DNA of 64,000 nt, taken from contig NZ_CP047056.1 in NCBI RefSeq assembly GCF_011065405.1, positions 3,308,747 through 3,372,746 on the forward strand, read 5' to 3'. A program made the translations under genes and the position numbers. Within the stretch, counting starts at the first letter, position 1; every line of letters begins with the position of its first letter. Positions 2,837 to 38,676 of the stretch are shown one piece after another. A model generated the notes under the pieces. That model was not told the DNA's origin, did not search any database, and saw only the letters and a program-made list of their open reading frames with translations. This DNA comes from Succinivibrio dextrinosolvens (GTDB taxonomy: Bacteria; Pseudomonadota; Gammaproteobacteria; Enterobacterales; Succinivibrionaceae).

Positions 2837-2864
2837 ATTATAGTACCACTTTCGAAACTTTCAA
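2837..2864 (-). promoter_or_regulatory. Minus-strand promoter, probably of the displaced ATPase gene
   Basis: On the minus strand, TTGAAA (2859-2864) and a perfect TATAAT (2837-2842) are 16 bp apart. The spacer contains the motif TTTCGAAAG, one unit of the repeat array at 2848-2935. Transcription would run leftward. No leftward gene begins before the ATPase start at 1311, and the TnpB element fills the gap. If the element is removed, the promoter lies about 30-40 nt from that ATG, a normal leader length. Confidence 0.65.
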
Positions 2865-2935
2865 AATTTTTGACTTTCGAAAGTAAAGTGTCAATCTACT
2901 TTCGAAACTTTAAAAAAAAATTGAGTTTTGAAAGT
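2848..2935. repeat. 25-bp-period TTTCGAAA repeat array
   Basis: ACTTTCGAAA occurs at 2848, 2873 and 2898, exactly 25 bp apart. A degenerate fourth unit near 2923 reads GTTTTGAAAGT. The unit at 2873-2884 is a perfect 12-bp palindrome, ACTTTCGAAAGT. The spacing and palindromic core suggest a protein-binding operator array. It overlaps the -35 and spacer of the minus-strand promoter at 2837-2864. Confidence 0.7.
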
Positions 2936-3026
2936 GAATTTTTATGAAAATAAAAACTAATGATTAAATGCTTGGAAAGGAAGTAACAAATAGGGGAATT
3001 ATAGAAAGCTTGGGAGAGAAAACAGA

Positions 3027-3050
3027 ATCTCCTGCGCTGAGGCAGGAGAT
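3027..3050 (-). terminator. Terminator-like hairpin after potI
   Basis: A perfect 9-bp stem, ATCTCCTGC / GCAGGAGAT, with a 6-nt loop lies 12 nt past the potI stop. The minus-strand tail is only loosely T-rich, so it may be a terminator or an mRNA 3' stabilising hairpin. Confidence 0.6.
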
Positions 3051-3062
3051 AGTATCAATATA

Positions 3063-3938
3063 TTAGGCTGCGATTGTATTCTCTTTTCTGAGAGCTGCCT
3101 TAACCATAGCAGCATTGCGTTCCTTGCGTTTCTGTTTGCGCACGGTTAGAACCCATGAAACAAAGGCAAAGATTGAAACCACAAAAACAATCACTGAAGC
3201 CAGAGCGTTGATCTCAGGTGACAGACCACGTCTTACACTTGAGAAGATAAGCATAGGCAGTGTTGTGGAGTTTGGTCCTGCTACGAAACTTGCAATAACC
3301 AGATCATCCATTGACATGGTGAAGCTCAGCAGGAAGGCGGCAACTTCTGCTGGCATAATTGCAGGCAGAATAATTACAAAGAAAACCTTCATCGGACCAG
3401 CTCCAAGATCTTTTGCCGCTTCTTCAATGGATACATCCAGCTCAACGAATCTTGAGCGGATAACCACAGTAGCATATGCAGAACAGAAGGTTACGTGGGC
3501 AATCCAGATGGTAATCATTCCTCTGTCTGAGAAGATAGGAATAATATCGCTTAAAGTTACGAAAAGTAACAGCAGTGCCAGACCTGTGATAACTTCAGGC
3601 AGAATCATAGGTGCAGTCATAAACAGCAGGAAGGCGCTTTCGCCTGTGAACTTCTTAATTCTGACCATAACAAATGCTGCTAGCGTTCCTATAATCACTG
3701 AAGCAATAGCTGACATAACAGCGATGGTCATAGAAATACCAACTGCAGTTATGATGGCATCATTATTCATCAGAGCACGATACCATTTCAGTGAGAACTT
3801 GGTCCAAACAGTAACCATCTTTGACTCGTTGAAGGAGTAAACCACCAGAGTCATGATTGGCAGATACAGGAAAATCAGAGTCAGTGTCAGAATTACAAAT
3901 CTGAACAGGGTACTCTTGGTATTCTTATTTAAGATCAT
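3063..3938 (-). CDS. potI: Putrescine ABC transporter permease PotI
   Basis: Inner-membrane permease of a polyamine ABC transporter, 291 residues with about six membrane spans. It carries the EAA coupling loop (EEAAKDLGAGPMKVFFVIILP). Sequence features such as DDLVIASFVAGP and SSVRRGLSPEINALAS fit PotI of the putrescine importer better than PotC. It follows potH with a 4-nt overlap, which indicates translational coupling, and pairs with PotH to form the channel. It is the last gene of the operon. No gene for the periplasmic binding protein PotF follows; the next sequence is the repeat array and the TnpB element. Confidence 0.88.
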   Translation of the reverse strand: MILNKNTKSTLFRFVILTLTLIFLYLPIMTLVVYSFNESKMVTVWTKFSLKWYRALMNNDAIITAVGISMTIAVMSAIASVIIGTLAAFVMVRIKKFTGESAFLLFMTAPMILPEVITGLALLLLFVTLSDIIPIFSDRGMITIWIAHVTFCSAYATVVIRSRFVELDVSIEEAAKDLGAGPMKVFFVIILPAIMPAEVAAFLLSFTMSMDDLVIASFVAGPNSTTLPMLIFSSVRRGLSPEINALASVIVFVVSIFAFVSWVLTVRKQKRKERNAAMVKAALRKENTIAA

Positions 3939-4900
3939 AATTCCCCCTGTTTACGCTGATTTTTGAAGAACCAGATAATAGGTATTGCCATAACTGTAAG
4001 CATGGTAATTGCAACGGATGAAGCAAGAGGCCAGTCTCGGTTGTTGAAGAATTCCTGCCAGAGAATTCTACCGATAAGAATAGAGTCCTTACCACCGAGC
4101 AGTTCAGGAATTACGTACTCACCGATTGCAGGGATGAATACCAGCATTGAACCTGCAATAATACCGCTGCGGGTCTGTGGTACCAGCGCATGGAAGAAGG
4201 TCTTTACAGGACGGCATCCAAGATCCTGAGCCGCCTCGATAAGGCTGTAGTCCACCTTCATAAGTGATGAGAATAAAGGCAGTACCATATAAGGGAGATA
4301 ACAGTAAACAATACCTATATATACAGCCAGATCAGTCTGCAGCATATGCAGAGGATGATCAATGATGCCGATACTCATCAGAATATCATTGATAAGTCCG
4401 TCTCTCTTTAAAATTGTCATCCAGGCATAGATTCTTACCACAAAGGAAGTCCAGCTTGGCATAATTATCAGAATAAACAGAATATTGCGGGTTGTACTCT
4501 TTGAAGTAGCAAGTGCCCAGGCAATCGGATAGCCGATAATCAGACATAAAAGAGTAGAGAATGCCGCTACCTGAATTGATTTAAGATAGGAACGCATATA
4601 GGTTCCATCCGGATCAATAAAGATATTGGTGTAGTTTTCCAGGTGCAGAATAATCTGCATTGCACCTTCCTCAAAGGTAACAATTGGGGAATAAGGCGGG
4701 ATCGCAATTTCTGTTACTGAAAAAGAAATCTTAAAGATAATCAGAAATGGGATCAGGAAGAACAGAATCATCCATACATAAGGTAAAAAGATGATTGCTC
4801 TTTCTCTTAAGGTAATCTTTCTGCCTGGAACATACCTAGGTGGTGGACGGTGTCCCTTTGACCCAGGAGTTCTAATCATATTTGAACTTATTAAAGCCAT
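3935..4900 (-). CDS. potH: Putrescine ABC transporter permease PotH
   Basis: Inner-membrane permease, 321 residues, with an N-terminal cytoplasmic extension rich in Pro and basic residues before the first membrane span at about 35-57. It has the EAA loop (IEAAQDLGCRPVKTFFHALVP) and a stretch typical of PotH (GRILWQEFFNNRDWPLAS) near the C-terminus. With PotI it forms the translocation path driven by PotG. It lies 32 nt after potG and overlaps potI by 4 nt. Assignment to the putrescine (PotFGHI) rather than spermidine (PotABCD) system rests on these motifs and is fairly firm. Confidence 0.9.
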   Translation of the reverse strand: MALISSNMIRTPGSKGHRPPPRYVPGRKITLRERAIIFLPYVWMILFFLIPFLIIFKISFSVTEIAIPPYSPIVTFEEGAMQIILHLENYTNIFIDPDGTYMRSYLKSIQVAAFSTLLCLIIGYPIAWALATSKSTTRNILFILIIMPSWTSFVVRIYAWMTILKRDGLINDILMSIGIIDHPLHMLQTDLAVYIGIVYCYLPYMVLPLFSSLMKVDYSLIEAAQDLGCRPVKTFFHALVPQTRSGIIAGSMLVFIPAIGEYVIPELLGGKDSILIGRILWQEFFNNRDWPLASSVAITMLTVMAIPIIWFFKNQRKQGEL

Positions 4901-4932
4901 TGATGTAATCTTCTCTATATTCTAATGATGAG

Positions 4933-6147
4933 TTAGAAGGTCAGGGCAATACAGGATTCAGGATCCCAGCTCAGATAAACCTTGTCATCCCAGGTTGGAA
5001 GACCAACATTGAATCTGTCAACATTAGGCAGAGTAGAGGTAATGATTCTTCCTGATGGCAGACGTACATAGTAAATTGAGATATCACCAAGATACGCGAT
5101 ATTCTCTACTGTACCTTCACACCAGTTGGTCTGCTCGGCAGGTTCCTCGTGGGAGATATAGACCTTCTCTGGTCTCATGGCAATAGATACAGGCATTCCG
5201 TCGGCAATATCGATATCGTGCAGAAGTTCGATTGGACGAGGGAAATCATTACACTGAATTACAGAGTGCTTATTGTCTGACTTGGTCAGAATGCAGTCGA
5301 ACATGTTAACCTGACCGATGAACTCTGCAGAGAATCGGCAGTTAGGGTTCTCATAGATTTCACGAGGTCCACCAATCTGTACGAACTCTCCACGATCCAT
5401 AATGGCAATACGATCAGCCATGGTCATAGCCTCTTCCTGATCGTGTGTAACCATAAGGCAGGTAACGCCAACGGAGTTGATGATATCAACAAGCTCCAGT
5501 CTCATCTGTTCACGCAGCTTCTTATCCAGAGCTCCCATAGGCTCATCTAGAAGCAGCAGGCGAGGTTCCTTTGCAAGTGATCTTGCAAGTGCCACACGCT
5601 GTTTCTGTCCACCTGAAAGCTGGTGAGGGCGTCTGTCAACGTAATCCTCCATGTGTACCAGTTTCAGCATTTTTTCAACTCGTGCATTGATAACATCACG
5701 TGGAAGCTTTTCCTGCTTTAAACCAAAGGCAATATTCTGGCGAACAGTCATATATGGGAACAGAGCATATGACTGGAACATCATGTTTAAGGTTCTCTTA
5801 TATGGAGGAAGGTTAACAATATCCTCCCCATCAAGAATAATATGACCTTCTGATGGCTGTTCAAAACCGGCCAGCATTCTCAAAAGGGTAGACTTGCCGC
5901 AGCCTGAAGAACCGAGCAGGGCAAAGATTTCTCCTTCATAGATGGTCAGATCAACATTATTAACAGCAGTAAAGTTACTGAAATTTTTTGTAAGTCCCTG
6001 AATCTGCAGAATAGGCTTTTTGTTCTGCTCTACAGGTGAAGCTTTCTGTCCTGGAAGCTCACCAGGTCTGTGAATCTGTTTTTGTGTGCTGTATTCGTTT
6101 GGTTTGTTAACCATTGGGGCAGCCCCATAATCGCCAGTATCTTTCAC
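4933..6147 (-). CDS. potG: Putrescine ABC transporter ATPase PotG
   Basis: ATP-binding subunit of the putrescine importer, 404 residues. Walker A GSSGCGKST, signature LSGGQKQRVALARS, Walker B LLLLDEP and the switch His in MVTHDQEEAM are all intact. A C-terminal TOBE-like domain follows, with the PotG-type stretch AYLGDISIYYVRLPSG. The N-terminus has about 45 extra residues before the nucleotide-binding domain. The start is GTG at 6145-6147, supported by CGGAGA about 9 nt upstream on the minus strand; an internal ATG at 6114 is the alternative. It heads the potGHI operon, and the 6148-6339 gap is shared with the divergent gene at 6340. Confidence 0.9.
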   Translation of the reverse strand: MKDTGDYGAAPMVNKPNEYSTQKQIHRPGELPGQKASPVEQNKKPILQIQGLTKNFSNFTAVNNVDLTIYEGEIFALLGSSGCGKSTLLRMLAGFEQPSEGHIILDGEDIVNLPPYKRTLNMMFQSYALFPYMTVRQNIAFGLKQEKLPRDVINARVEKMLKLVHMEDYVDRRPHQLSGGQKQRVALARSLAKEPRLLLLDEPMGALDKKLREQMRLELVDIINSVGVTCLMVTHDQEEAMTMADRIAIMDRGEFVQIGGPREIYENPNCRFSAEFIGQVNMFDCILTKSDNKHSVIQCNDFPRPIELLHDIDIADGMPVSIAMRPEKVYISHEEPAEQTNWCEGTVENIAYLGDISIYYVRLPSGRIITSTLPNVDRFNVGLPTWDDKVYLSWDPESCIALTF

Positions 6148-6339
6148 GCACGAAATCTCCGAAATAAAGAGAAAAATGTTTATTTTTTTGTGAAAAGGAT
6201 CTTAAAGGAAATGAGATAACAGTCAACCTTTTTTTTGATATATTTGCGTTTTGATTTAATTTTTCTTTTCAGAGCTGTTTTCGGCTTAACATCCTTACGG
6301 CATAGCTCTTTTTTCTCTTGAAAAGATTCTAGAGAATAG

Positions 6340-7578
6340 ATGCCTAATCTGATAGACTTGTCAGAAGACTTACATAAGGTTTGTTACAGGCAGAAAATCT
6401 ATATGGATAATGTTTTTTCTCAGGGAGAGGATACTTTCCTTTTTGGTCCGAATCAGGAAAATGAGGTTGGTCGTCAGATAAAATATCTTGGAGGTTCCAA
6501 GGTTCTGGTGATCTATTCTAAATTGTCATCTTCCATTGGCAATCTTTTAGATAAGGTTAGACGCTCTCTGCGCAACACCGGTCTTGATTATACCGAATTA
6601 GGGGAATCCTACGTAAATCCAAGAATTTCCACTGTTTTTGACGGCATCAAGATCTGCAAGACAGAAGATGTGGATTTTATTCTGGCTGTAGGTTCTACAT
6701 CTGTTTGTTCCGTAGCCAAGGTTATTGCCGCCGGAGCTGTTTTTGAAGACAGCTTTTATGAGATGTTCAAAAATAACAGTGATATTGAAAAAGCTCTGCC
6801 TCTTGCCGTAATCAGTACATCTATCTGCGGTGGCTGCGCTATCTCCAGAGAAGTCACTGTCTTTAACCGCCTTGAGGATGGAAGTCTAAAATACTTTGAC
6901 TGTTCATCAGAGGTTCTTTCCCCTAAGTTTGTAATTTATAATCCTGAACTTTGCAGTATCAGTTCCTCAAATTACGCCTTCAATTTTGTAAGGCTGCTGG
7001 ATGTGCTCTTTCGAAGATATTTTGAAGTCAACAAGAATACAGTTCTGGCTGAAAAAATGCTGGAAGCTACAATCAAGACTGTTCTTATAATGTTTGAAAA
7101 GATTAAGGACAAGCCAAACGATGTTGACTGTATAACCAATCTGATGTGGGCAAGTATTTCGGCATATGTAAATCCGATGCTTAACTACAATGATGAGGCC
7201 TGTATCCCTATTTTAGAGAAGGCCATGATTTCTGTTTATGACTGTAATCCAGAAGAGGCTGCAAGTATTATTATTCCTGCCTGGTTTAAATTTGTACTTA
7301 AGAAAAAGGAACTGCAGATAGCAAAACTTGGCTCTACTGCCTTTGATATTCCTTACAATTTTTCTGATGTCGGAATTACTGCTTCCCAGACAGTGGATTT
7401 TATCAAACGCAGATTTGAGGCTTTAAAGTTGCCGGTAAAACTGTCTGAATTAAACGGTAATGCGGGGGATATTGAAAAGATATTAAAGAAGGTTGGTTTC
7501 CCTGAGATAAAATCAATCGGAACCAATGAGCATTACACTCAGACTGACTGTGAGGTTATTCTGTCTCTGGCTCTTTAA
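6340..7578 (+). CDS. Degenerate iron-type alcohol dehydrogenase-like protein (metal ligands lost)
   Basis: Fold of the YqhD/butanol dehydrogenase branch of Fe-type alcohol dehydrogenases, 412 residues, near family length. Recognisable stretches include FGPNQENEVG (33-44), NPRISTVFDGIKIC (93-106), DFILAVGSTSV (112-122; GGGSV in active members) and the C-terminal helical domain. By my hand alignment to YqhD the four metal ligands are all replaced: Asp194 by Arg218, His198 by Val222, His267 by Lys294 and His281 by Pro304. The nucleotide-binding GGGS is GSTS. The reading frame is intact, so this is probably an expressed pseudoenzyme of unknown role rather than a decayed gene. It is divergent from potG and convergent with the gene at 7759-9474. 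Confidence 0.75.
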   Translation: MPNLIDLSEDLHKVCYRQKIYMDNVFSQGEDTFLFGPNQENEVGRQIKYLGGSKVLVIYSKLSSSIGNLLDKVRRSLRNTGLDYTELGESYVNPRISTVFDGIKICKTEDVDFILAVGSTSVCSVAKVIAAGAVFEDSFYEMFKNNSDIEKALPLAVISTSICGGCAISREVTVFNRLEDGSLKYFDCSSEVLSPKFVIYNPELCSISSSNYAFNFVRLLDVLFRRYFEVNKNTVLAEKMLEATIKTVLIMFEKIKDKPNDVDCITNLMWASISAYVNPMLNYNDEACIPILEKAMISVYDCNPEEAASIIIPAWFKFVLKKKELQIAKLGSTAFDIPYNFSDVGITASQTVDFIKRRFEALKLPVKLSELNGNAGDIEKILKKVGFPEIKSIGTNEHYTQTDCEVILSLAL

Positions 7579-7611
7579 GCTTGTGTGTTCCAGATTCTTG
7601 TTCAAAAAAAT

Positions 7612-7642
7612 AAGGTGGTAAATCTTTGAGGAGAACCACCTT
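7612..7642. terminator. Bidirectional terminator
   Basis: The stem AAGGTGGT / ACCACCTT has a 15-nt loop. An A-run on the left serves as the T-run for minus-strand transcription, and TTAGTTTTG lies on the right. It sits between two convergent genes. Confidence 0.6.
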
Positions 7643-7758
7643 AGTTTTGAGATAAACTGTTTTCTAAATTTTAAGTATTAACATTTTCTGTTTGGAGAGC
7701 TCTCAGATCAGATGTTACTGCTGTCATCTTTATCGGCATCAGCTTTCTTTTCTACCCG

Positions 7759-9474
7759 CTATTTTGGCTCTTTCTCTTCTTTTTTCTCTTCAATAACCTT
7801 TTCTGAAACGTTAAGAACTTCAAGCGCTTCATCCTGGGTCTTGCTGTCCTTGTCGTTCTTCTCCTCTGGACTTATCTCCATCATCAGACGATGCATGAAG
7901 CCAAGCATATCGTCGAAGAACTCTCGATTTACGTGTTCTGTAGCTTTGTACAGATCACCGCCCTTATAGGTAAAGGTAATTCCCGGAGCGTTGAGGTTAT
8001 AGAACGTTGAGATAGGCATTGGACATTCATCTTTTAAAGCCTTTAGAGCAACATCAATTCCAACAGGTCTGATAAAGCAGTTGTCATTGGCAGGGCACTC
8101 ATTTTCGATATTGATCTGATGGTCATGCTTTTTATTGAACTCTTCAACAGCCTTGTTGATTTTGATGAAGATTTCTCTGTCCAGAGCATTGTTACGTCTC
8201 AACTGCTGCTGAGGAATAAAGTCATTACCAAAGAAAATCACTACAGATGGTCTAGGAAGACGGGCCAGCTCATTGAGACGTTCGATGATATTCTTAAGAA
8301 TATCCTGAACTCCAAGCTCCTCATTGGCACACTTCTGAATCAGACCTTCAATGGCTGACTTAAGATTTCCTTTATAGTGAAGCGCTGCTCTGTAGAAAAA
8401 GTCTGCAAAGGACAGTACTTCTGCTTCCTTAACCGGAATAGTATGCTCTTCATCATTAATCTTGCAGTAAAGCAGTTCTCTCTCTTCCATAAGCAGAGCT
8501 GATTTTTCAATGGCACTGGCGGCTACCTGTTTCAGATTCTCAAGCAAATCGAGAATATTCAGGTTGATAAATGGGAAGGTGAAACTTAAATGAACAGCAT
8601 CCGGAGTATTTGGAGAACGGTTATTGTAAGTGTGCAGATAATTAAAGGTTGGGGCAATAGCTCTCTTGGATAAATCTTTGGTGATAACTGGATTGATCTC
8701 AATTTCATCAATAATCTTTGAGGCAATCAGGGTTGGAGAGAATCCCTTGTATGGTCTTTCAGTATCTGTACCTTCACCAAAGATGTAGAAGCCTGCTTCC
8801 ACCTTACCCATATTGGCAGTGTACACATTAATGGTGTCATCCGGAATTTCTGTGGATTCTGGTTTGAAGGAAATGCCTAAAGTCAGTTCAATATTCTGCT
8901 CATTAATAAGGGTATGAATATAAGGAAGACAGGTTCTTATTCCTTCATTGCCGTTCAGTGATTCACTGTTGCATACGAACAGCAGATTGATAGGAAGCTC
9001 CCACAGCCTTTCTGAGTAGTATTTCAGAAGGATCAGCATGCCTGCAATAGGAGCCTTGTTCTCAAAGGAACCTAGTCCGTAGATGTTATTCTCATTCTCA
9101 AGTTCAGCAAGCTGAGCTTCTGTCAGAGAGGAGTTTTTGAGTTTCTCCTTTAATTCGTCTGATTTGAAGGCAAATGTTTTTAAGGTACCGTAGACCTCAT
9201 TTGAGGAGGTATCGGTATTACATAAAACCACCAGAGTTTCTCTGGTAAGCTGATCTCGTCTTACAAAGGCTGTAAAGGAATGATTTTTCTGATCGTCATG
9301 AGTGATGTAGCTTAAATACTCTGGATTATTCTTGAAATAGGTGAATTCAGATACGGTATTGTATATGGTATGACTCATGATCTCATCACCAGAGGTTCTG
9401 GTGATGCTTGGAATGGCAATAAGCCATTTGAGGACAGCTAATGCCTCTTCGCTAAACTCTTTTTCAGTAAGCAC
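7759..9474 (-). CDS. RocB-like M20 family protein with lost metal site
   Basis: 571 residues with the layout of RocB (arginine utilisation) M20 zinc peptidases: an N-terminal catalytic-type domain with IPSITRTSGDE (21-31) and TDTSSNEVYGTL (87-98), and a long C-terminal part. The zinc and catalytic residues are changed by my alignment. His of the HxD motif is Asn86 (CNTDT), the bridging Asp of MDMKSG is Glu138 (FENKAP), the catalytic Glu of DEE appears as Ser170, and the late His is Tyr509 (GGDLYK). A Lys/Glu-rich tail of about 35 residues ends the protein. It is probably not a metallopeptidase; its role is unknown. It follows the M23 hydrolase gene by 40 nt in the same direction, so the two are likely co-transcribed. 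Confidence 0.7.
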   Translation of the reverse strand: MLTEKEFSEEALAVLKWLIAIPSITRTSGDEIMSHTIYNTVSEFTYFKNNPEYLSYITHDDQKNHSFTAFVRRDQLTRETLVVLCNTDTSSNEVYGTLKTFAFKSDELKEKLKNSSLTEAQLAELENENNIYGLGSFENKAPIAGMLILLKYYSERLWELPINLLFVCNSESLNGNEGIRTCLPYIHTLINEQNIELTLGISFKPESTEIPDDTINVYTANMGKVEAGFYIFGEGTDTERPYKGFSPTLIASKIIDEIEINPVITKDLSKRAIAPTFNYLHTYNNRSPNTPDAVHLSFTFPFINLNILDLLENLKQVAASAIEKSALLMEERELLYCKINDEEHTIPVKEAEVLSFADFFYRAALHYKGNLKSAIEGLIQKCANEELGVQDILKNIIERLNELARLPRPSVVIFFGNDFIPQQQLRRNNALDREIFIKINKAVEEFNKKHDHQINIENECPANDNCFIRPVGIDVALKALKDECPMPISTFYNLNAPGITFTYKGGDLYKATEHVNREFFDDMLGFMHRLMMEISPEEKNDKDSKTQDEALEVLNVSEKVIEEKKEEKEPK

Positions 9475-9514
9475 AGGTTATCCTTAGTTTATTTCTGTAT
9501 GTATATCTTCTAAG

Positions 9515-11392
9515 TTATTTCACTTCTGCTAATTTATTTTTATACAGCTCTGTCTTCAAGATGTAAACATTATTTTTAAATGCTTCTTTCAATCTTTGAG
9601 CTGTAGCAGGACTTCCGGAAGGAAGATCTACTTTCAGAGGGTCAACAGGACGTCCGTTGACATGAACCTCATAATGAAGATGTGCACCAGTGGAATTACC
9701 TGTATTTCCTGACTTGGCAATAATCTGTCCTATATGCACATGCTCTCCCTGCTGAACGTCAAACTTGGATAGGTGCATATAAACTGTTGAGTAACCGCCT
9801 TTGTGGTTGATAATAATCGAGTAACCGCCACCACGCATGTATTTTGCGTAGGTAACCACACCATCTGCCGGAGCATAGATAGGTGTACCGATATTAACCT
9901 TGAAATCAACACCGTAGTGAGGACGGATAACCTGTCTTATAGGATGAAAACGTCTCAGATTGAAAGGTGAACTTACCTTGATCTGTCCCATGATAGGGAA
10001 TCTTCTGAAAGCTCCTGTTGAAGGATTGTATCCGTTCTCCTCGTAGAAAATATGGTTCAGCTGATGACGGTATAAATTGATCTGACCGAACATCTTGGTA
10101 TTCATGGAAATTGCGGTCATACTTGAGCCCTGACCGATTCCATTGAAGAGAATTCTGAAAGAATCTCCTGCAGAAAGTTTATTGAAATTGATTCTGCCTA
10201 CATACTGATTTTTGATGGTAACAATTTCAGAACGGGTCAGACCGTAACGGGCAGCTGCCTTGTCAAAGCTCTCCTTTTCACCGATTGAACCGATGATTAG
10301 ACGAGGTCTGGTCTTACCCTTGTAGATAGATTTGGACTTTTCCTTTTCTGCGGCTGCCAGCAGGGCATCCTGTTTTTTCTGTGCGGCAAGCTGTTCACGC
10401 TTCAGACGTGCTTTTTCAAGCTCTTCCTTTTGTTTCTGTGACAGTAGAGCTTCCTGTTCAAGTCTCTTTTTATTACGCTCTTTTTCTGCCTCGATGAAGG
10501 ATGGCATCAGGGTGGCGCTGTCCATACCGCGGCTCTTTAAATCTGAGAACTGGGCAAAGCGGCGTTCACGGGCAACAGTGTAGGTGTTCTTTTCAATATC
10601 TCTAGAGAAGCGAACCTGTTTATTGCCGGATAGAGGAATGGCAATTTCCTGAACCGAGTTGTCCTCTGCAATCAGGAACTGAATCTTCTGACCTACAGAC
10701 AGATTCAGATCACTGTCTCTGGCAACAGCGGTAATCTTTTTAAGATCGTCATTGTTCAGATTCAGATAGGAGAAGATCTTAGAAAGAGAATCACCCTTGC
10801 GGATGGTCTGCTCATACCATTTGCCGTTGAAACCCTTTTCTGTTTCACTCTGGGCAATGGTTCCTGGAATTCTGTTAGGAGCCAGAATACTGCTGATATA
10901 TTTTTCTGACTGGGTTTTCTTGTCTGCAAGAATTTTTTCGCTGGAATTCTTTTCAATGTCAGTTGCTACGAACTTGACCCTCTGTTCTGGTTCTGCGGTG
11001 GCAGTAGCCTGAGCTGCTTCTCTTTCTTTTTTGATTTCAGCCTGACTGGCCTGAGCGATCAGAGCCTCGGTATTGATATCATCATCATAGTTTTCCTCAG
11101 ACCCTGCTGTTGAGGAGATTTCAACGTTGGCTTCGGCGATGACTTCGTTATTCTTCAGATATTCCTGCTCGTAAACTCGGTTCTGTTCCTCTCTGCCGGT
11201 GGAGAGAGCTGTAAAAGGGGAGGCACTTTCAGGAATGATGGAGCCGAAAGGTAGTGCTAAAAGAACAGATATAATCCCAACAGAGAAAATAGCGAAAATA
11301 TGCTTACCAGGAAGTGTGGTGGCACCTGTCTCTTTTTCTACTGCTATGTAATCTTCTGCTGCGGTTCTATTTGTTATTTTAACGTTTATCAT
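9515..11392 (-). CDS. M23 family murein endopeptidase (MepM-like)
   Basis: Envelope protein of 625 residues. A cytoplasmic N-terminus is followed by one membrane span (about residues 29-50), a long charged linker with a Lys/Glu/Ala-rich coiled-coil segment (about 305-350), a LysM/OapA-like region (YEQTIRKGDSLSKIF, near 190), and a C-terminal peptidase_M23 domain. The zinc ligands of the M23 domain are present (HYGVDF and HLHYEVH), as is the glycine-rich GTPIYAPADGVV. Such enzymes cut peptide cross-links in peptidoglycan to allow cell growth. It is longer than E. coli MepM (440 residues) because of the linker. It lies upstream of the RocB-like gene and diverges from the SHMT-like gene across a 523-bp gap. 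Confidence 0.85.
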   Translation of the reverse strand: MINVKITNRTAAEDYIAVEKETGATTLPGKHIFAIFSVGIISVLLALPFGSIIPESASPFTALSTGREEQNRVYEQEYLKNNEVIAEANVEISSTAGSEENYDDDINTEALIAQASQAEIKKEREAAQATATAEPEQRVKFVATDIEKNSSEKILADKKTQSEKYISSILAPNRIPGTIAQSETEKGFNGKWYEQTIRKGDSLSKIFSYLNLNNDDLKKITAVARDSDLNLSVGQKIQFLIAEDNSVQEIAIPLSGNKQVRFSRDIEKNTYTVARERRFAQFSDLKSRGMDSATLMPSFIEAEKERNKKRLEQEALLSQKQKEELEKARLKREQLAAQKKQDALLAAAEKEKSKSIYKGKTRPRLIIGSIGEKESFDKAAARYGLTRSEIVTIKNQYVGRINFNKLSAGDSFRILFNGIGQGSSMTAISMNTKMFGQINLYRHQLNHIFYEENGYNPSTGAFRRFPIMGQIKVSSPFNLRRFHPIRQVIRPHYGVDFKVNIGTPIYAPADGVVTYAKYMRGGGYSIIINHKGGYSTVYMHLSKFDVQQGEHVHIGQIIAKSGNTGNSTGAHLHYEVHVNGRPVDPLKVDLPSGSPATAQRLKEAFKNNVYILKTELYKNKLAEVK

Positions 11393-28400: not shown

Positions 28401-28428
28401 TTCTCTCTCCAGAAAACAAACTGCGGAT

Positions 28429-31164: not shown

Positions 31165-31710
31165 GCAACCTATATAGAGAATTGGCGCAGGTCAAGAGAT
31201 TTTCTCAGTGTTCGCAGAACTTTTGACGAACTTCAAAATTTCGTTATCCTTTAATCTTTTCTCAGGCCTTTTCCTGACAGGCTTAACTCCTATCTTTACT
31301 GTATGAGATTTTATCATTGTTTTGATGTTTTTTCAGACAATAATAAAACTATCTGCAACGGCAGACATGTATTGGATCAATTGATTAAAACATGGTGTTA
31401 AGTTATTGCTATAGCGTTTATCCCTGTTGTTCTGATTCTGACTGTCACTGCCGATCCTTTTACGCGATTTCTATATAATGTGTTTTTGCAATATTTTGGT
31501 AAAGACCATTTTTATTGCCACGAGCTTGTGCCTTTCAGCCATTTAGCCATACTTACGATTTCAATTTAAAAACAGAGAAGTTTGTTAAAAAACAAATCAG
31601 GCTCTGATTGTCTGCGTTTAACTAAGTTATGGCTTTCTCCTAGGAGCGATCTTGTCGGTGATGATCAAAATGATTTAAATATTGTTGTACGGTTAAATAA
31701 ATTCTTTCTG
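31165..31710. other. Non-coding stretch with a decayed reading frame
   Basis: No intact gene. At 31303-31569 (plus) one frame of 89 codons, MRFYHCFDVFSDNN to FSHLAILTISI, is broken by a single TAA at 31399-31401. The second half is hydrophobic (IAIAFIPVVLILTVTADPF). I do not recognise it; it may be the remnant of a small membrane protein gene or chance. The 3' parts of the flanking IS4 and IS110 elements must also lie here. Confidence 0.35.
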
Positions 31711-33135
31711 TTAGTCCAAAGCTGCCTCATAAACTGAGCAGTCTTCGTTATATCCTGTGCCACTCTTTATCTCTGCAATAAGCTGGTTCTGCCAGGGGGT
31801 ACTTTCATTTACCGAGAGTTTTATACTGTTCAAGAGTGATTGCAGCTGTTCCCCAGCAGTGTCTTTTAAAATCTCATAAAGAACAGGATCAACAAGCGCT
31901 GAGCGAATACTGTTTTCAAGTTTCTTTAACTTCGATCTGAATTTACTGATTTTGTTTCGTGCGATCTTTTTATCTGATGTTGAAAGATCAAACTCTGACG
32001 AGGTATTGCATTGTGCAGGATCATTTTTCTGTTCTTGAGCTGGTTCAGATTTAAGAGGAGCATCAGTTGCCATCTTAAAGATTTGTCTGGCTATATCCTT
32101 GGCATATGCAATCTTAAGACGCTTGTCCTTTAAGTCTAGTTTCTTGTCATCAAGCTTTTTGTTGGTAATTAGTTTGTTATGCGCCACCACAAGAGAGTTA
32201 CCGCCTTCATAGAAAAGCGCCTTTAAAATCTTATTTCCCTCTGGGGAGTGTTTACCAACCTTGTTCTTGCCACCTGTGCCGTGATGTACAGGTACTAACT
32301 GCATAAACGAGATGAAGCTGTTGGCATTTCTGAATCTGTCAAAGTTATCCTGAGTATAAACACTTACCGCCACAGCTAGCGGAACACCTACGCCACGTAC
32401 CGACAGATATTTCTCACAGCTCTGGTGGGTGCTGGCATAATTTTCAAAGAATTCATTCTCAATTCCTGCAAGGCTTATGGCATACATCTCAAGCATTGCA
32501 CATTGCCGTTCCAGATAACCGCAAAGTCCGCTCACCTTGTTTTTACAATGCTCATATTCACTGATAAAGTCTCTGATGTGTCTTATGGTCTGAGATGGTG
32601 TCATCTCATAGCTGTAACCTTTAAGTGCATCCTGCTCTCTGAGGAATGCTATTAGATTTCTGTTTGTGGCTGTGATATTGCTTTTAATATCTGAATAGCT
32701 TTTAACCAGAAACATCTCCTGCCGGTTCACCTCATCTCTGATTATGCAGTGCTTAAAGGTAGCTGAGTTCGGATATGTTTTATAAATCAGCAGCGCATTT
32801 CTGACACCACGGGCATCTCCCTTATCATCCTTGTTCTTGCTGCAGTTATGATTTCGACAGGATTTTGCAGGAAAGATATATACCTCAGCCCCAAGTCTTT
32901 GTATAAGAGTTGCCCAGTAGTTTGAACCGCCACAGGCTTCCATGGCAAAAACATAGTTCTGATTAGCATGTTCAGTGATGAACTTAAAGAAATTTTTAGG
33001 ACTAAGCTTGAAATCGTGTTCAATTCCATCTAAGTCTGCAAGACTTAGCTGAATTTCTTTTGACGCCAGGTCAAAACCTACTAAAACCTTATTAATTTCA
33101 TTTGCAAAGGTTGTAAGATTATTGGTAGTATTCAT
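31711..33135 (-). CDS. IS110-family transposase (first copy)
   Basis: 474 residues. The N-terminal DEDD RuvC-like domain has Asp in LVGFDLASKEIQ, Glu in YVFAMEACGG and Asp in NKDDKGDARG. The C-terminal transposase_20 region includes LSVRGVGVPLAVAVSVY and GTGGKNKVGKHSPEGNKIL. A long C-terminal extension of about 110 residues goes beyond most members. The ATG at 33133-33135 has GGGAGA 8 nt upstream. IS110 recombinases use a bridge RNA encoded in the element's non-coding end, normally upstream of the gene, here 33136 onward. It differs strongly from the neighbouring IS110 protein at 33622, so these are two different elements. Confidence 0.9.
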   Translation of the reverse strand: MNTTNNLTTFANEINKVLVGFDLASKEIQLSLADLDGIEHDFKLSPKNFFKFITEHANQNYVFAMEACGGSNYWATLIQRLGAEVYIFPAKSCRNHNCSKNKDDKGDARGVRNALLIYKTYPNSATFKHCIIRDEVNRQEMFLVKSYSDIKSNITATNRNLIAFLREQDALKGYSYEMTPSQTIRHIRDFISEYEHCKNKVSGLCGYLERQCAMLEMYAISLAGIENEFFENYASTHQSCEKYLSVRGVGVPLAVAVSVYTQDNFDRFRNANSFISFMQLVPVHHGTGGKNKVGKHSPEGNKILKALFYEGGNSLVVAHNKLITNKKLDDKKLDLKDKRLKIAYAKDIARQIFKMATDAPLKSEPAQEQKNDPAQCNTSSEFDLSTSDKKIARNKISKFRSKLKKLENSIRSALVDPVLYEILKDTAGEQLQSLLNSIKLSVNESTPWQNQLIAEIKSGTGYNEDCSVYEAALD

Positions 33136-33621
33136 TTGCGATTTCTCCCTTAAGTTGTTTTTTTTCGCAATATAAATTTTACCTAAGAGAGAATTGCAAA
33201 AGGCGGAGCTCTGTCAAAGAGTTTCCGCCTTAAATTTTTCCATTCAAATGTGACCAGAACTATATACGCAGTTAATCTCCTAAGGATTACATCTTTATAG
33301 AAATCTGAAATGAATTCCCAACTGCAGTTTTAAACCGGAAATAGGGGCCAATTCATGTAATGCGATTCAATGTTATCAGTTGCTTAAAAGACCTCACTAT
33401 CTCCGATTTAAAACCACAGTCAGTGAACCTGAGGTTCAGCTCAGACTGCATTTGGAAGACTATTGATGGACAAATCACAGCGCAAGTTAAAAAAGCTATC
33501 CGGTCGACCTATACAATAGCCTTCAGAATGCAATCTGAACAAAATTCATGGTGCATCAAGTCCACGGACGCAGGAAGCTTTAGCACATTCACTTATGATG
33601 GTTATTAAACAGTACCGAGTA
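33136..33621. other. Non-coding stretch between two IS110 elements; possible bridge RNA region
   Basis: 486 bp with no convincing gene. It holds the upstream end of the first IS110 element (where a bridge RNA is expected on the minus strand, roughly 33136-33330), a hairpin at 33201-33230 and the downstream end of the second IS110 element. An 82-codon open frame at 33360-33608 matches nothing I know and is probably not a gene. Confidence 0.4.
33201..33230. repeat. Hairpin related to the left end at 1322-1364
   Basis: The stem AGGCGGA / TCCGCCT continues inward with GCTCT / AGAGT. The sequence GGCGGAGCTCTG then TCAA matches 1351-1366 with one difference. It may be part of the IS110 non-coding RNA region or a leftover IS200/IS605 end into which the IS110 inserted. 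Confidence 0.5.
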
Positions 33622-34734
33622 TTACCTCAGTTTTTTTATCAGATTACATCGTGTTTCATCAAAGGTCTCTCCGTTCTTTGCTACCGCATAAGCGATTCTG
33701 GCAAGGCGATTCATAATGGCACAGATAATGACTTTCTTTCTCTTGGTCTTAAGCCTATCCTTTACCCATGACGATTCTGTACCGTTTTTCATGGCATTGG
33801 ATAGATAGACCATAGCACCCATATAAAGGCTCTTCTTAAGTGAGCGAATACCTGATTTACGAATCCCCATAACGGTAATTTTTCCGCCACTACCGGTAAT
33901 AATCGGGGTCACTCCCACATAGGCTGAGAATGCTCTGGCACTGTGAAATCTCTCAGGATCACCTAAAGCTGTATTCAATGCTACTGCTGTTTGTATTCCT
34001 ACACCTGGAATAGTCGCAAGATTAAGACAGGTTTTATTCGAGCTTCCATACTTTTGTATGTACTTATTGATTGTATCAATCTGCTCCTTAAGGTTATCGA
34101 GGATATTGAATACAGCGTTTTTGATGACAGAGAAATGTGCTGATGCCATAGGATCATGCTCAAAGCTCTCCTGCGCATCAGTAAATCCCAGACTGATCTT
34201 TGCAGATGTTTCAACACCAGCACCTCCTGCCACAATACCGTGCTCATAAAGAATACCGTGTGCTGCATTGATACACTGGGTATGCTGTTTTATGAGCTGG
34301 TCTCGTATTGTAAAAAGGTTCATGAGTAACTGATTTTCAAGACTCTTAGCTGGGATACTTTCAACCGAGGACAGCATTGCCTTGAATATTCCTGTAGCAT
34401 CAATCTTATCGTTCTTATCAAGTTTTAAGAACGCTTTGACCTTTGATGCCGGAATTATTCTGCACTGATGACCTTTGCTTTCAAAATATCTGCTAAGGTA
34501 GTTGCAAGAACCACAGGCTTCTATTCCGAAAAGCATAGGCCCTGTTGCCTTGTCAACGAATTCAAAGAATTTGCTGCGGGTAAGCTGAAAGTTTTTGAGC
34601 AGCTTCTTATCGCTGTCAAAGTAACAGACCTGCATAACTCTGCTTGCCACATCAACAGCGACAGGATTTACTCCAAGCGTGTCACGATGGTAAGCAATGG
34701 TTGCAAGTTCATAATCACTAAGCTTAGGTTTCAT
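33622..34734 (-). CDS. IS110-family transposase (second copy)
   Basis: About 370 residues. The DEDD domain has Asp in VAVDVASRVMQV, Glu in LFGIEACGSCNY and Asp in KLDKNDKIDATG. The C-terminal half contains LATIPGVGIQTAVALNT, FSAYVGVTPIITGSGGK and a basic region near the end. The start ATG at 34734 with GGAG upstream is preferred; an in-frame TTG at 34782 would add 16 residues. The short upstream gap to the right 9-bp repeat (34735-34884) would hold any bridge RNA of this element. Confidence 0.88.
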   Translation of the reverse strand: MKPKLSDYELATIAYHRDTLGVNPVAVDVASRVMQVCYFDSDKKLLKNFQLTRSKFFEFVDKATGPMLFGIEACGSCNYLSRYFESKGHQCRIIPASKVKAFLKLDKNDKIDATGIFKAMLSSVESIPAKSLENQLLMNLFTIRDQLIKQHTQCINAAHGILYEHGIVAGGAGVETSAKISLGFTDAQESFEHDPMASAHFSVIKNAVFNILDNLKEQIDTINKYIQKYGSSNKTCLNLATIPGVGIQTAVALNTALGDPERFHSARAFSAYVGVTPIITGSGGKITVMGIRKSGIRSLKKSLYMGAMVYLSNAMKNGTESSWVKDRLKTKRKKVIICAIMNRLARIAYAVAKNGETFDETRCNLIKKLR

Positions 34735-35022
34735 ATGAAAGGTAGCTCCGATTAAATGTCTGTTGATTACAACTTCAATCAAAGCTATGATGAACCTAGG
34801 AATACAAGCTTATTTTGAAGTACCTAGAGTCAGGAAATTGCGTCCGTAAATTTATTTCCATTCTCTACATACTATTCATGCATGTTTACGTCTGTATTTA
34901 ATCACAAAAACCAGATGAACATGCAAATTGTAAACACAATGTCGGCCGTGCAAAAATTCTGTTTTTTTCATATACTATCATCCTCAATTGTTAATAATCT
35001 TGTTGGAGTCCTTTCATCGTAA

Positions 35023-36312
35023 ATGAATATCAACTGGAAACAGGCATACAGATATAGGTTAAGACCTAATGGCGCACAGCAGAGAAGATTACTTCAGCTC
35101 TGCGGCTCTGCCAGATATGCATGGAACCAGGTCTTGACAGGAAGAAATGAGGAATATAAGGAATATCTTGAAGACATCGAATCAGCCAAATGCTGGGGAG
35201 AAGATGTTTCTTTAGTACCAAAGCCAAGACCTATAAATAGATTTTCATTTACATATGATCTTAATAAACTGATGGCAGAGGAAGAAAACAGCTTTCTCAA
35301 GACTCAGGGGCACTCTCAGGTGCTGCAGCAAAAGATGCAGGACTTGTATAGTGCTTTTAGCCGGTTCTTCACAGGTAAAGGCGGATATCCTCAATTCAAG
35401 ACCAAAAACGGATACAACTCTATAAGATTTCCTCAGGGCATAAATCTGGATGAGAAGAATCAGAGGATCTTTCTTCCAAAGACCGGTTTTGTAAGGTACA
35501 GAAAGTCCAGAGATATAGAGGGAGACATAAAGAACGTAACCGTCTCATTCTTTTCTGGAGAATGGTATGTATCTATACAGACTCAGAAAGAAATTGAAGT
35601 ACCTGAGATAAATCTAAAAACCATGTTAGAGACTGAGGCGGATAATGCTTTGGGTATAGATATGGGAGCAGTACGCTTCTGCACCTTCTCTGACGGACGT
35701 TATGAAGAGTCACTAAAGAGTAATGAGCTTACCCGTCTTGATGAAAAGATAGCTATTGTTCAGAGACAGCTCAAAAACAAAAAGAAAGGTTCTAACAGAA
35801 GATTAAGACTTATAAAGAGAATTTCCAGACTTCATCAGAAGAAAGCCAATATACGTAATGACAGTCATCAGAAGCTCAGCACACTGATTTGCAATAGCCA
35901 CGCTATAGTTGTTGCTGAGGAGCTGAAGATCAAGAATATGACGAAAAGTGCAAAAGGAAGCCTGTTAAATCCTGGTAAGAATGTAAAAGCAAAGTCAGGA
36001 CTTAACCGTTCAATTCTGTCTGAAGGCTGGGGACAATTCTTTAAGATGCTTGAATACAAGCAGAAAAAGAGAGGTCATATCTTTTTACAGCTTAACCCAA
36101 AGAATACCAGCAGAACCTGTCCTAAATGCGGTCATGTCTCAAAAGACAATCGCAGAACTCAGGCTCATTTCTGCTGTACGAACTGTGGATATACAGCTAA
36201 TGCAGATGAAAATGCAGCGGGAAATATCCTAAGGGCCGGACTGGCCCGGCTAGCACAGGAAGTGAACTCCAAAAGGAGTCAGCACTGTGAACCCTCTGAA
36301 GCTGAACAGTAA
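35023..36312 (+). CDS. tnpB: TnpB RNA-guided nuclease of the IS605-type element
   Basis: 429 residues with the standard TnpB layout. The N-terminal helix-turn-helix region is YRYRLRPNGAQQRRL. The RuvC residues are Asp in LGIDMGAVRFC, Glu in VVAEELKIKNM and Asp in NADENAAGNI. A four-Cys zinc ribbon (CPKCGH, CCTNCGY) lies before the last Asp. All appear intact. It diverges from the split tnpA with about 50 nt between start codons. Although tnpA is dead, TnpB could still cut empty target sites and preserve the element at this locus. The C-terminal tail (about 25 residues, rich in Ser and Glu) overlaps the omega-RNA region. Confidence 0.93.
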   Translation: MNINWKQAYRYRLRPNGAQQRRLLQLCGSARYAWNQVLTGRNEEYKEYLEDIESAKCWGEDVSLVPKPRPINRFSFTYDLNKLMAEEENSFLKTQGHSQVLQQKMQDLYSAFSRFFTGKGGYPQFKTKNGYNSIRFPQGINLDEKNQRIFLPKTGFVRYRKSRDIEGDIKNVTVSFFSGEWYVSIQTQKEIEVPEINLKTMLETEADNALGIDMGAVRFCTFSDGRYEESLKSNELTRLDEKIAIVQRQLKNKKKGSNRRLRLIKRISRLHQKKANIRNDSHQKLSTLICNSHAIVVAEELKIKNMTKSAKGSLLNPGKNVKAKSGLNRSILSEGWGQFFKMLEYKQKKRGHIFLQLNPKNTSRTCPKCGHVSKDNRRTQAHFCCTNCGYTANADENAAGNILRAGLARLAQEVNSKRSQHCEPSEAEQ

Positions 36313-36355
36313 TGTCAGCAGTAGGAATCCTCTTGCTTCAAGAGGAGGATGTCAA
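36200..36355 (+). ncRNA. Predicted omega-RNA and right end of the IS605-type element
   Basis: The region overlaps the tnpB 3' end and closes with the right-end hairpin CCTCTTG / CAAGAGG (36329-36345) followed by AGGATGTCAA, the classic form of an IS605 right end. In this family the guide is the flank just outside, here from 36356 (AGCCAGAGC). The 5' end of the RNA is a guess. Confidence 0.45.
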
Positions 36356-36926
36356 AGCCAGAGCTTTTGACTTCAATTGGACAAATTTTCTTGTTGAAGG
36401 TTGTTAAAAAATCAATTTCGTAATTTCTTTTTGCTGCTTCATTTCTGAATGTATGATAGAAAAGACCGTGTCCATTTGTTGCAAGTGTCTGAGCGATTAT
36501 GTTCTCATATAGATATCCAAGGTTAGTCTGCAGTTTGTCATTTAGCAATTTTGCATATATATCATTTTCGGTAAAATCTTTGTCTTTAAATGACAATGTA
36601 ACAAACAGTCCTGTATCTGTGGTGAAGAGTTTGAATCTTGAAAGATCTTTGTTTTGAGATAATCCAACATTAGGATCATTTGCATGGTAGGAAAACAGTA
36701 CTGTTCCAGAATCTTTTAGTTCTGCAATGTCCTCAAGAATGTCTCCTGCTCGATTCCCTAACTACAGTAGATTTTCCTACTCGTCTTGGACCTTCTATCA
36801 AAAGAGCTGTACGTCCGTTTGATTCTTTTTTCCACTTAAGTATTTTGTCGTATATCTTACGCTTAAACATCAGGTTTAACCTTTTTAATATTGGTTTTTA
36901 CATTCTAATTTTTTAATCAGAATTTC

Positions 36927-37040
36927 AAAATCGTCAAATTTTTTTTAAGCGTTTTACCGCAAAATCGTCAAATGTTTTTAAGCGTTTTACCGCAAAATCG
37001 TCAAATGTTTTTAGGAGTTTTACCGCAAAATCGTCAAATG
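36927..37040. repeat. 33-bp-period repeat array upstream of the disrupted DUF4143 gene
   Basis: AAAATCGTCAAAT occurs at 36927, 36961, 36994 and 37027 (spacing 34, 33, 33). It is followed in three units by a T-run, an AGCGTTTTACCGC-like segment and the next copy. The first unit is about 55 bp from the start codon of the disrupted ATPase gene at 36872. On the minus strand each unit carries TTGACGATTTT, so the arrays may overlap promoter elements. The rest of 36873-37181 is AT-rich with no gene. Confidence 0.9.
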
Positions 37041-37181
37041 TTCTTTATAAATAAGCTTAACTATTTGTTTTTTTTTAGTAATCTAAGTTATTGAATAACA
37101 AGTTGTGTCTAGCGGATATTTTGGTTTTAAGCCTACGATTTTTTTAATAAAAAAGTTTTTTTGTTCTCAATTGTATCTTTT

Positions 37182-38471
37182 CTACAAGTTACACACTGCA
37201 TATAGCGGAATATTGACCATCCAATCCTGCTCTTGGTAGTTTAAAAGAGATAATCTTATAGACTGTTCTGGATGAAATTTATTGTAAAAAGCTTTAAGAC
37301 TTTGAGAGTGAATGTTAGTTTCTGCTTTTACTTCAATTGGTACGGCATTCATCCCTTTCTGAATAAGAAAATCCTGCTCGAATGTTGCCGATTCTGTTCC
37401 ATAATAATAAGGTGAATACTCCGTATCACTTACGATCTGCTGAAGAACGTATTGTTCTGTAAAAGCTCCTTTGAATTCAATAAAAAGTCTACTTCCTTCA
37501 ATAATAGAATGCAGATCCAGTTCACTCATGGCCCCCAATAAACCAATATCTAAAAAAAACAATTTAAAAAATGATAGTTCTTTGTATGCTGAAAGAGGAA
37601 CATGAGGAATATTGACTTTATGAACTCTGTAAATCAGGCCACTATCTATTAACCATTGTATTGCTTTCTCAAATTCAGAGCTTCTTGCCCCTTTTTTTAT
37701 CTGACCGAAGAAGAATTTTTTGTTTTCTTTTGCAAGCTGCATAGGAACGGAATCCCATACCATATTTATACGAGGTAGCTCAATGGAAGAAATATGTTTT
37801 CCAAAATCTCCCCTATACTGAAGGATAATTTCTTTTTGAACATCTCTTGCAGCGTAGTAGTCACTATTATTTAGAAAGCAGTTAACAGCTTCTGGCATTC
37901 CTCCAACATACATGTAGTTTTTCAGGTGATATATGTATTTTTCTGAAAAACTGTCTATAAGGTTGTAATCTTTGGTTTTTAGAGCATCCGCTAATACATT
38001 TTCTCCAACTGCATATAAAAACTCTCTAAAGTTAAGAGGATAGAGATTAAGTGTTGTTACCTTTCCTACCGGATAAGAAACACCTTCATGTAATGCTACA
38101 CCAAGAAGAGATCCTGCAACAATGATATTATATTCAGGAGCATCCTCATTAAAATATTTTAGAGATTCAAAGGCTTTTGGTGCGTTTTGTATTTCATCAA
38201 AAATAATGAGTGTATTGTCTGCGGAAACAGTGAATCCTACCTCAATATTTATGGCAGAAATTATTCTTTTAATGTCATAGTCCTGCTCAAAAACTCTCCT
38301 CATGCGAGCATTATTGTAGAACGATATATATGCAACTTTGTCGTAATATTGTTTGCCAAATTCCTTCATTAGCCAAGTTTTTCCTACCTGACGTGCCCCC
38401 ATTATGACTAAAGGCTTTTTATTTTTTTTATTTTTCCATTCAACAAGTTTTTGCATTGCGAATCGTTGCAT
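37182..38471 (-). CDS. AAA_14/DUF4143 family ATPase, intact
   Basis: 429 residues, full length. P-loop VIMGARQVGKTWL near 22-34, Walker B TLIIFDEIQNAP near 87-98, sensor-like IIVAGSLLG near 135, and the DUF4143 part with AFTEQYVLQQI. The terminal nuclease-like motif (EQDFLIQKGMNAVPIEVKAE) retains Asp and the E-x-K pair. Function is unknown; some suggest defence or toxin-antitoxin roles for the family, without proof. It is only distantly related to the gene at 118-1311. An array of four 33-bp repeats lies upstream, starting about 95 bp before the ATG. Confidence 0.88.
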   Translation of the reverse strand: MQRFAMQKLVEWKNKKNKKPLVIMGARQVGKTWLMKEFGKQYYDKVAYISFYNNARMRRVFEQDYDIKRIISAINIEVGFTVSADNTLIIFDEIQNAPKAFESLKYFNEDAPEYNIIVAGSLLGVALHEGVSYPVGKVTTLNLYPLNFREFLYAVGENVLADALKTKDYNLIDSFSEKYIYHLKNYMYVGGMPEAVNCFLNNSDYYAARDVQKEIILQYRGDFGKHISSIELPRINMVWDSVPMQLAKENKKFFFGQIKKGARSSEFEKAIQWLIDSGLIYRVHKVNIPHVPLSAYKELSFFKLFFLDIGLLGAMSELDLHSIIEGSRLFIEFKGAFTEQYVLQQIVSDTEYSPYYYGTESATFEQDFLIQKGMNAVPIEVKAETNIHSQSLKAFYNKFHPEQSIRLSLLNYQEQDWMVNIPLYAVCNL

Positions 38472-38564
38472 CTTCCGGCACCTCAGGAGATATTATTAAA
38501 ATTATTTGAAGCTAAATACGCATATGTTATACCTTAGATATAACCATATAATTTTATAGTATTA

Positions 38565-38676
38565 TACATTTTTTAATACCTTAAAATATACATTTATTAC
38601 ATTTTTTAAGACCATGAAATATACATTTACTACATTTTTTAAGAGCTAAAAAATAGAAATTTATTACATTTTTTAA
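38565..38676. repeat. 33-bp-period repeat array upstream of the intact DUF4143 gene
   Basis: TACATTTTTTAA occurs at 38565, 38598, 38631 and 38665 (spacing 33, 33, 34), with AAATATACATT-like sequence in the second half of each unit. A minus-strand TATAAT lies at 38561-38566, overlapping the first unit, so the array covers the -35 side of the probable ATPase promoter. The sequence differs from the array at 36927-37040 but the period and position are the same. Confidence 0.9.

Follow-up and report, generated by a model that had tools for sequence, protein, structure and literature searches.

Why genes of one family of predicted ATPases should be preceded by short tandem repeats, and what could read these repeats, is the question raised by a 64,000-bp stretch of the Succinivibrio dextrinosolvens genome (contig NZ_CP047056.1, positions 3,308,747 to 3,372,746; hereafter the window, numbered from its first base). 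A preliminary description reported tandem arrays at 2848-2935, 36927-37040 and 38565-38676, here termed arrays A, B and C, each said to lie upstream of an AAA_14/DUF4143 ATPase gene with a geometry common to all three. All three arrays are present at these positions. B and C are direct repeats of 33 bp before AAA_14/DUF4143 ATPase genes, the 33-bp array is a real and general feature of such genes, and the arrays are very probably dedicated cis-regulatory operator arrays of AAA_14/DUF4143 (PDC-S01) ATPase genes. The features of the B and C region are as follows.

36315-36871, minus strand: broken AAA_14/DUF4143 ATPase gene 3' of array B, its frame interrupted upstream of 36758
36926-37047, minus strand: array B, 33-bp unit present 3.6 times, with core ATTTGACGATTTTGCGG read on that strand
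37182-38471, minus strand: intact AAA_14/DUF4143 ATPase P0004, the gene of array C (PDC-S01 model PDLC04786)
38561-38695 (also given as 38565-38695), minus strand: array C, 33-bp unit present 3.9 times, with core CTTAAAAAATGTA read on that strand

Copies of AAAATCGTCAAAT start at 36927, 36961, 36994 and 37027 in array B, and copies of TACATTTTTTAA at 38565, 38598, 38631 and 38665 in array C, where the promoter-proximal (last) core merges into a -10-like TATAAT at 38561-38566. With tandem-array scores of 205 (B) and 176 (C; 197 as a 67-bp unit), they are the top two arrays of the window, the third-best scoring 66 and lying inside a 923-aa open reading frame (ORF). A clustered regularly interspaced short palindromic repeat (CRISPR) array was ruled out for both on their near-identical 33-bp units, which run head to tail with no unique spacers, cas genes being outside the search. 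The claimed position and geometry hold for B and C, with the reservation that the array-B gene is broken; its C-terminal part (36315-36758) is still open, and an intact relative (L129; loci bear L numbers) has the same array type. Array A departs from both claims, as described below.

The genome (3.47 Mb, one contig) holds 15 DUF4143 matches. Within 464 kb of it, made up of the window and 20 random 20-kb stretches, five arrays with a period of 30-36 bp score at least 100; a DUF4143 gene immediately follows four of them; the fifth, with a score of 100, is an orphan adjoining a transposase gene that by eye looks to be of IS630 type. This orphan is a 32-bp array at L047:15814-15898, with a flank similar to the TTTTCTTGACTAGTACA sequence next to array C and to comparable sequences at L007 and L014. 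Arrays of 32-33 bp were found in this genome by Tandem Repeats Finder (TRF) before L003, L005, L006 (array C), L007 and L015 (array B), and by core spacing at L014/L118 and L125; the ATPases of L004 and L010 look 5'-truncated.

The wider set comprised 152 ATPase loci (80 named, 67 from a same-genus search, among which L118 and L125 belong to the genome of the window, and 5 own). G004:C82 and fragments (two of G010, G016:C24 and own 2415135) were left out, two pieces of G016:C23 were merged, and loci with less than 150 or 300 bp upstream were dropped, hence the varying denominators; the broken array-B gene is not counted among the 148 loci below. A lag score (self-match) of at least 24 was reached by 71 of 140 ATPase 300-bp upstream regions, at lags of 32 (25 loci), 33 (42), 34 (3) and 35 bp (1), while at any lag it was reached by 2 of 230 upstream regions of other genes, 4 of 108 ATPase downstream regions and 0 of 420 shuffles. 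The upstream scan proposed in the preliminary description thus finds arrays commoner than in control upstream regions. TRF detected arrays at 65 loci, with a median 3' end at -46 relative to the start codon and 1.9 to 8.8 copies (median 2.9), and core pairs at 31-34 bp were found in 24 of 83 TRF-negative loci, giving 89 of 148 together (named 54/78, same-genus search 31/65, own 4/5). At 60% identity, 56 of 81 protein clusters include at least one array bearer, and in 47 the first member has an array. Among further loci of the same family (14 loci, L216-L229, reduced to 13 by excluding the partial match L229), arrays precede nine. The DUF1703/PDDEXK_9 genes sampled lack such arrays, in line with the preliminary description: none of 20 taken from 82 matches in the genome has one, the best lag score being 12 and one gene (L279) having a weak 17-bp repeat. 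These 82 matches in 3.47 Mb are a striking expansion in their own right, two of them lying in the window at 57443-59056 and 59183-60802.

What recurs in these arrays, across a range from Bacteroidota to archaea, is a core spaced by 32 or 33 bp with a consensus of roughly TCGTC..AAAARTGTR; as the seed of the motif model was AAAAATGTAA, the model favours this core. Other subfamilies have cores of their own, namely ACGATTTTG (the array-B group), TGCG-containing ones, AAAACGTGA, ATTATGTGA and TTGGAAAAGTGG. Even at TRF-negative loci the core pairs are spaced by 32 (10 pairs), 33 (27) or 64-66 bp (18), with 5 other pairs within 8-70 bp, and core pairs at 31-34 bp are found in 0 of 242 control upstream regions. 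Judged by eye, a promoter-like box is overlapped by the array or follows it at most loci. In Bacteroidota, a TAnnTTTG (-7) box is present in 26 of 34 real upstream regions compared with 13% of shuffled ones (one of the 35 listed loci, L153, is from Chlorobiota and is not among the arrays used for the register). With a tolerance of 2 bp, 16 of the 17 plus-strand Bacteroidota arrays that have this box keep it in register modulo 33 (binomial p ~1e-12, without correction for relatedness), and in 11 of the 17 it starts precisely at core+7. The core is inverted relative to the ATPase gene at three Bacteroidota loci (L197, L205 and L212).

The array sequence also follows the ATPase that it precedes, as the preliminary description had anticipated: across 63 loci, the more alike two proteins are, the more alike their units tend to be (Mantel rho 0.297, reached by 0 of 2000 permutations), and classes of the DUF4143 winged-helix segment track core classes by eye. 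A hidden neighbouring regulator could be rejected, because among 1230 neighbouring ORFs around 80 genes (at least 60 aa, within 2.5 kb, BLAST E 1e-4) no family recurs at more than 5 of 80 loci, and the two most recurrent ones, at 5 loci, are by eye other AAA_14 ATPases. A wider regulon was likewise rejected for the two cores searched in their own genome at up to 3 mismatches: the L007 core occurs only in its own array, and the array-B core occurs exactly in its own array and with 3 mismatches at two places elsewhere. In 40 host genomes, the core-pair pattern gave 93 matches in 29 genomes, compared with 5 for a reversed-letter control; when collapsed by hand into 60 clusters, at least 37 are followed by a listed ATPase no more than 160 bp away, in 35 cases on the same strand. 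Ten of the 23 remaining clusters were read, of which L472, L474 and L481 lie by a truncated, broken or divergent AAA_14 ATPase (by eye), the array of L467 follows another AAA gene, three look like orphans (named below), and L463, L469 and L470 fit none of these groups clearly.

Both intact ATPases of the window, P0004 and the owner of array A (P0001), score above the curated cut-offs for Pfam PF13173 and PF13635 and match PDC-S01 (591.4 and 474 bits, respectively); by these matches they are assigned to PDC-S01, an unvalidated single-gene phage-defence candidate of PADLOC. The predicted ATPase structure (predicted local distance difference test score 90.5) is nearest to the archaeal ATPases 2qen (Z 16.7) and 2fna (Z 15.8), followed by nucleotide-binding leucine-rich-repeat proteins, CED-4 and Orc/Cdc6 proteins, the archaeal matches being of the type of signal transduction ATPases with numerous domains (STAND), and Foldseek rank 5 is a maltose-system structure (8bob); the likeness to an AAA+/STAND core with a winged helix is one of fold match, not of a motif test. 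Residues E365, D367, E380 and K382 are invariant in 50 sequences and may correspond to the E..DF..EVK-type catalytic residues of PD-(D/E)XK nucleases. A PDB sequence search with a five-row profile returned nothing convincing.

Archaea have close relatives of the ATPase: within the phylum to which L213 (a Candidatus Methanofilum) belongs, 8 of 196 genomes carry them. Of 10 archaeal loci, 7 have two cores spaced by 32 or 33 bp (L513-L519; six by motif, L515 by lag score and eye), and L510, L511 and L520 show no clear core pair. Since archaea are not known to use bacterial sigma factors, the persistence of the core there makes the ATPase a more plausible shared partner than RNA polymerase. The direct repeats of L518 and L519 may themselves contain a dyad, since every unit includes an inverted counterpart as well (AAAAAGTGT...ACACTTTTT in L519).

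Array A represents a second type, in another clade. Its features are given below.

118-1314, minus strand: AAA_14/DUF4143 ATPase P0001, owner of array A (PDC-S01 model PDLC04787; first ATG at 1311)
1312-2800, plus strand: IS605-type element with TnpB (1431-2660), ends approximate and taken from the empty site in L231
2838-2935, minus strand: array A, TTTCGAAA palindromes at 2850, 2875 and 2900 plus diverged copies

The main copies span 2850-2907 at a spacing of 25 bp, and the array overlaps (by eye) a promoter-like TTGAAA-16-TATAAT pointing at the ATPase, from which it is parted in the window by the TnpB element of ~1.5 kb (~1312-2800). In L231, whose ATPase protein is 97% identical and whose flanks match those of the window at a ratio of 0.92, the ATG is immediately preceded by the same TTTCGAAA repeats and TATAAT, and the insertion site is empty. 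Array A is thus evidently the native promoter region of P0001, cut off by the TnpB insertion, and the claim of an array directly upstream of each ATPase does not extend to it. Nor does the claim of a common geometry, given that array A is of a 25-bp spaced, palindromic/inverted type as opposed to the 33-bp direct repeats of B and C, and that P0001 falls in another clade of the protein tree. Relatives of this clade have inverted repeats of ~33-49 bp upstream, the arms of which change together by eye (L231, L232, L241, L242, L249, L250, L257 and L259); these may be dyad operators or RNA hairpins. With 22 of 30 loci used (dropping the own locus L230 with its insertion, L258 with 15 bp upstream, and partial matches), a palindrome score of at least 11.5 was reached by 10 of 22 loci versus 5 of 440 block shuffles, and one of at least 13.5 by 7 of 22 versus 0 of 440; against dinucleotide shuffles, a score of at least 9 was reached by 17 of 22 loci versus 25 of 132, one shuffle hitting 13.5. 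On these counts, the inverted-repeat type is clear only in about half of the second-clade loci.

The paralogue correlation, the 32/33-bp spacing, the Bacteroidota register, the two cores without better host matches and the missing recurrent linked regulator all support the dedicated operators envisaged in the preliminary description. That the ATPase itself binds its own array is a reading we favour with less assurance, as it fits the operator evidence, the winged-helix and Orc-like fold, and the core and spacing kept in archaea. In the larger clade (B and C), each unit is a core of ~17-20 bp recurring every 32-33 bp, a distance of three helical turns that would place all cores on one face of the helix. 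In the second clade, the operator would be the ~33-49-bp inverted repeat, in one to three copies by eye. In Bacteroidota, the promoter-proximal core overlaps the promoter box or sits one period away. The ATPase (AAA+/winged-helix/PD-(D/E)XK) could bind via its winged-helix region, with an oligomer setting the spacing, and the bound protein would repress its own promoter; once titrated or engaged elsewhere, it would let its own expression rise. We infer the ATPase as binder, repression on binding and a release tied to infection. Operator arrays bound by the ATPase that represses its own promoter are, as a whole, the best explanation of these data, and one we consider moderately probable.

Several observations weigh against this explanation. 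No array was detectable, by TRF or core pair, at 59 of 148 ATPase loci, including the own-genome L002 and likewise its relative L067, nor at 4 of the 13 further loci of the same family. The paralogue correlation is partly shared descent, and a sliding-window test fails to single out the winged helix (partial correlations of 0.07-0.11 around 221-290 and 0.10-0.12 at the Walker-A region), leaving a co-variation confined to the winged helix unsupported. The TA of the Bacteroidota box, though not its TTTG, is partly implied by the core, and in non-Bacteroidota loci TATAAT-like -10 boxes are scattered with no clear register. At L190 and L191, the promoter box comes first and the array follows it. 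Finally, arrays occur apart from any ATPase, both as apparent host orphans (L458, L465 and L468) and in viruses.

The strongest competing possibility is that the array serves less as an operator than as a platform on which the ATPase-nuclease is loaded and assembles, in the manner of Orc1/Cdc6 or iteron initiators on their repeats, with its promoter overlap being secondary. An Orc/Cdc6-like AAA+ protein with a winged helix among the fold matches, a strict three-turn spacing and a variable copy number (1.9 to 8.8) would suit such a platform, but the Bacteroidota arrays stand in register with promoter boxes and no second conserved repeat was seen downstream (lag score of at least 24 in 4/108 downstream regions), so that we regard it as rather unlikely.

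The viral occurrences bear on a further alternative, in which the array is a phage-regulator operator copied by the defence gene, a bait promoter through which a phage protein turns the ATPase on. Three cores at 32/33 bp were found in 19 IMG/VR stretches, and a search of 13 of their whole records found the ATPase in 2 (records may be fragments). Core pairs at 32/33 bp occur in at least 120 viral stretches, versus 10 at 36/37 and 20 at 27/28 bp. Among the 120 matches listed, the ATPase is in the stretch in 2 and 87 lie outside ORFs of at least 100 aa; dereplicated, again among the matches listed, 43 lie outside such ORFs, 42 of them without ATPase, compared with 3 and 7 for the controls. Some matches are coding repeats or chance (e.g. 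L283, L288 and L349). Common to the 43 viral arrays are a tract rich in A, with 81% A at position -10 relative to the second core, and a G at position -1 (53%); a ribosome-binding-like site with a start codon follows within 90 bp in 15 of 43, versus 0 of 10 controls. Ten downstream genes (of 22 listed) were tested against PHROGs; three gave no match, and seven matched a small terminase, a large terminase, a minor head protein, a head-tail adaptor, a ParB-like nuclease, a HicB-like protein and one of unknown function. Array-bearing phage contigs with no ATPase in the stretch itself include L280, L284, L291, L296, L322, L392 and others, some with arrays just upstream of phage genes; the first four are ATPase-free across the whole record, and the L280 array stands before the small terminase. 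Twelve viral loci encode an ATPase of the AAA_14/DUF4143 family, preceded by 33-bp repeats (by motif or lag score) at least in L300, L301, L302 and L306 and not in L304, L305 and L307-L309. The repeat of L302 and L306 holds an internal ATAAATGTGTA/TACACATTTAT palindrome.

That viral contigs without the ATPase share the core and its 32/33-bp spacing, partly just before phage genes, speaks for a bait promoter. However, core and spacing are constant from Bacteroidota to archaea and correlate with ATPase relationships, and of three other paralogue cores in viral contigs, GACGATTTTG (3 matches) and CTGCGYATACACC (1) are found only in coding or not array-like contexts and AAAACGTGA (21 matches) is mostly coding, with L492-L494 as possible arrays; a bait promoter is therefore improbable. 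The viral arrays may be decoys, hijacked operators or phage operators. A bolder and doubtful extension of the self-binding reading would have the ATPase polymerise on a paralogue-specific phased array serving as both operator and sensor, with phages having acquired arrays, some before packaging or head genes, to titrate the ATPase or to put late genes under it. Invading DNA bearing arrays would then free the ATPase from its own promoter, amounting to a recognition code common to defence and phage.

A repeat-type regulatory RNA or leader, also entertained in the preliminary description, is highly improbable: the arrays of L190 and L191 would indeed be transcribed, but by eye the majority of arrays lie over or ahead of the promoter-like box, a few in Bacteroidota (L197, L205 and L212) run in the opposite direction to the gene, and the window gave no Rfam match at gathering cut-offs. 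Neutral tandem duplication in AT-rich intergenic DNA, for which the labile copy number and expansion by slippage might speak, can be dismissed on the upstream, downstream, shuffle, DUF1703, random-stretch and viral controls, where such repeats are near-absent, and on the single fixed period, the core common to phyla and domains and the spacing kept in degenerate arrays.

Among known systems, PDC-S01 is the same family as the window ATPases by model match. It has been ranked as the fourth commonest defence of prokaryotes and described as a fusion of an ATPase domain with the PD-(D/E)XK superfamily (PMC12988326), and in a collection of rumen genomes it is reported to be the individual locus found most often (PMC13356809); the accessible portions of both accounts mention no array, operator or repeat for it, and those of PMC12255303 and PMC4406477 do not mention arrays at these ATPase genes. 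In the literature searched on DUF4143/COG1373/PDC-S01 ATPases, repeats and defence, as far as its texts were available and with supplements and preprints outside the search, we found no account of such arrays and none of how PDC-S01 works. A conserved DNA partner would be a first handle on PDC-S01, providing a short ligand for binding, oligomerisation and activation in vitro, while the array promoter offers an induction reporter and a way to pair paralogue with site. With the same sites in viral contigs, what the system senses becomes directly testable.

The closest regulatory likeness is RptR of a type I restriction-modification/DarTG2 defence island, where, in the portion of the report available, direct repeats in the promoter of a defence gene overlap the -10 box and autorepression is shown (PMC12255303). 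Its repeats are 9 bp around TAGCTA and are bound by a separate 9-kDa repressor (PMC12255303), whereas the ATPase arrays have units of 32-33 bp, cores that vary by paralogue and no small repressor gene recurring nearby. An RptR-type operator was rejected on these differences. MalT, a STAND-type regulator that acts on repeated promoter boxes, resembles the present case in combining a STAND-like ATPase with repeated promoter sites; it activates other genes, whereas the two tested ATPase cores have no other good host match. In the iteron/initiator and Orc1/Cdc6-origin-box pairs, initiator proteins act on repeats, and the likeness extends to an AAA+ protein with a winged helix (Orc1/Cdc6) and to phased repeats beside its own gene. 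Nothing indicates replication at the ATPase loci, which in the own genome are chromosomal, and the ATPase differs further in having a PD-(D/E)XK domain, as described for PDC-S01 in the accessible part of PMC12988326.

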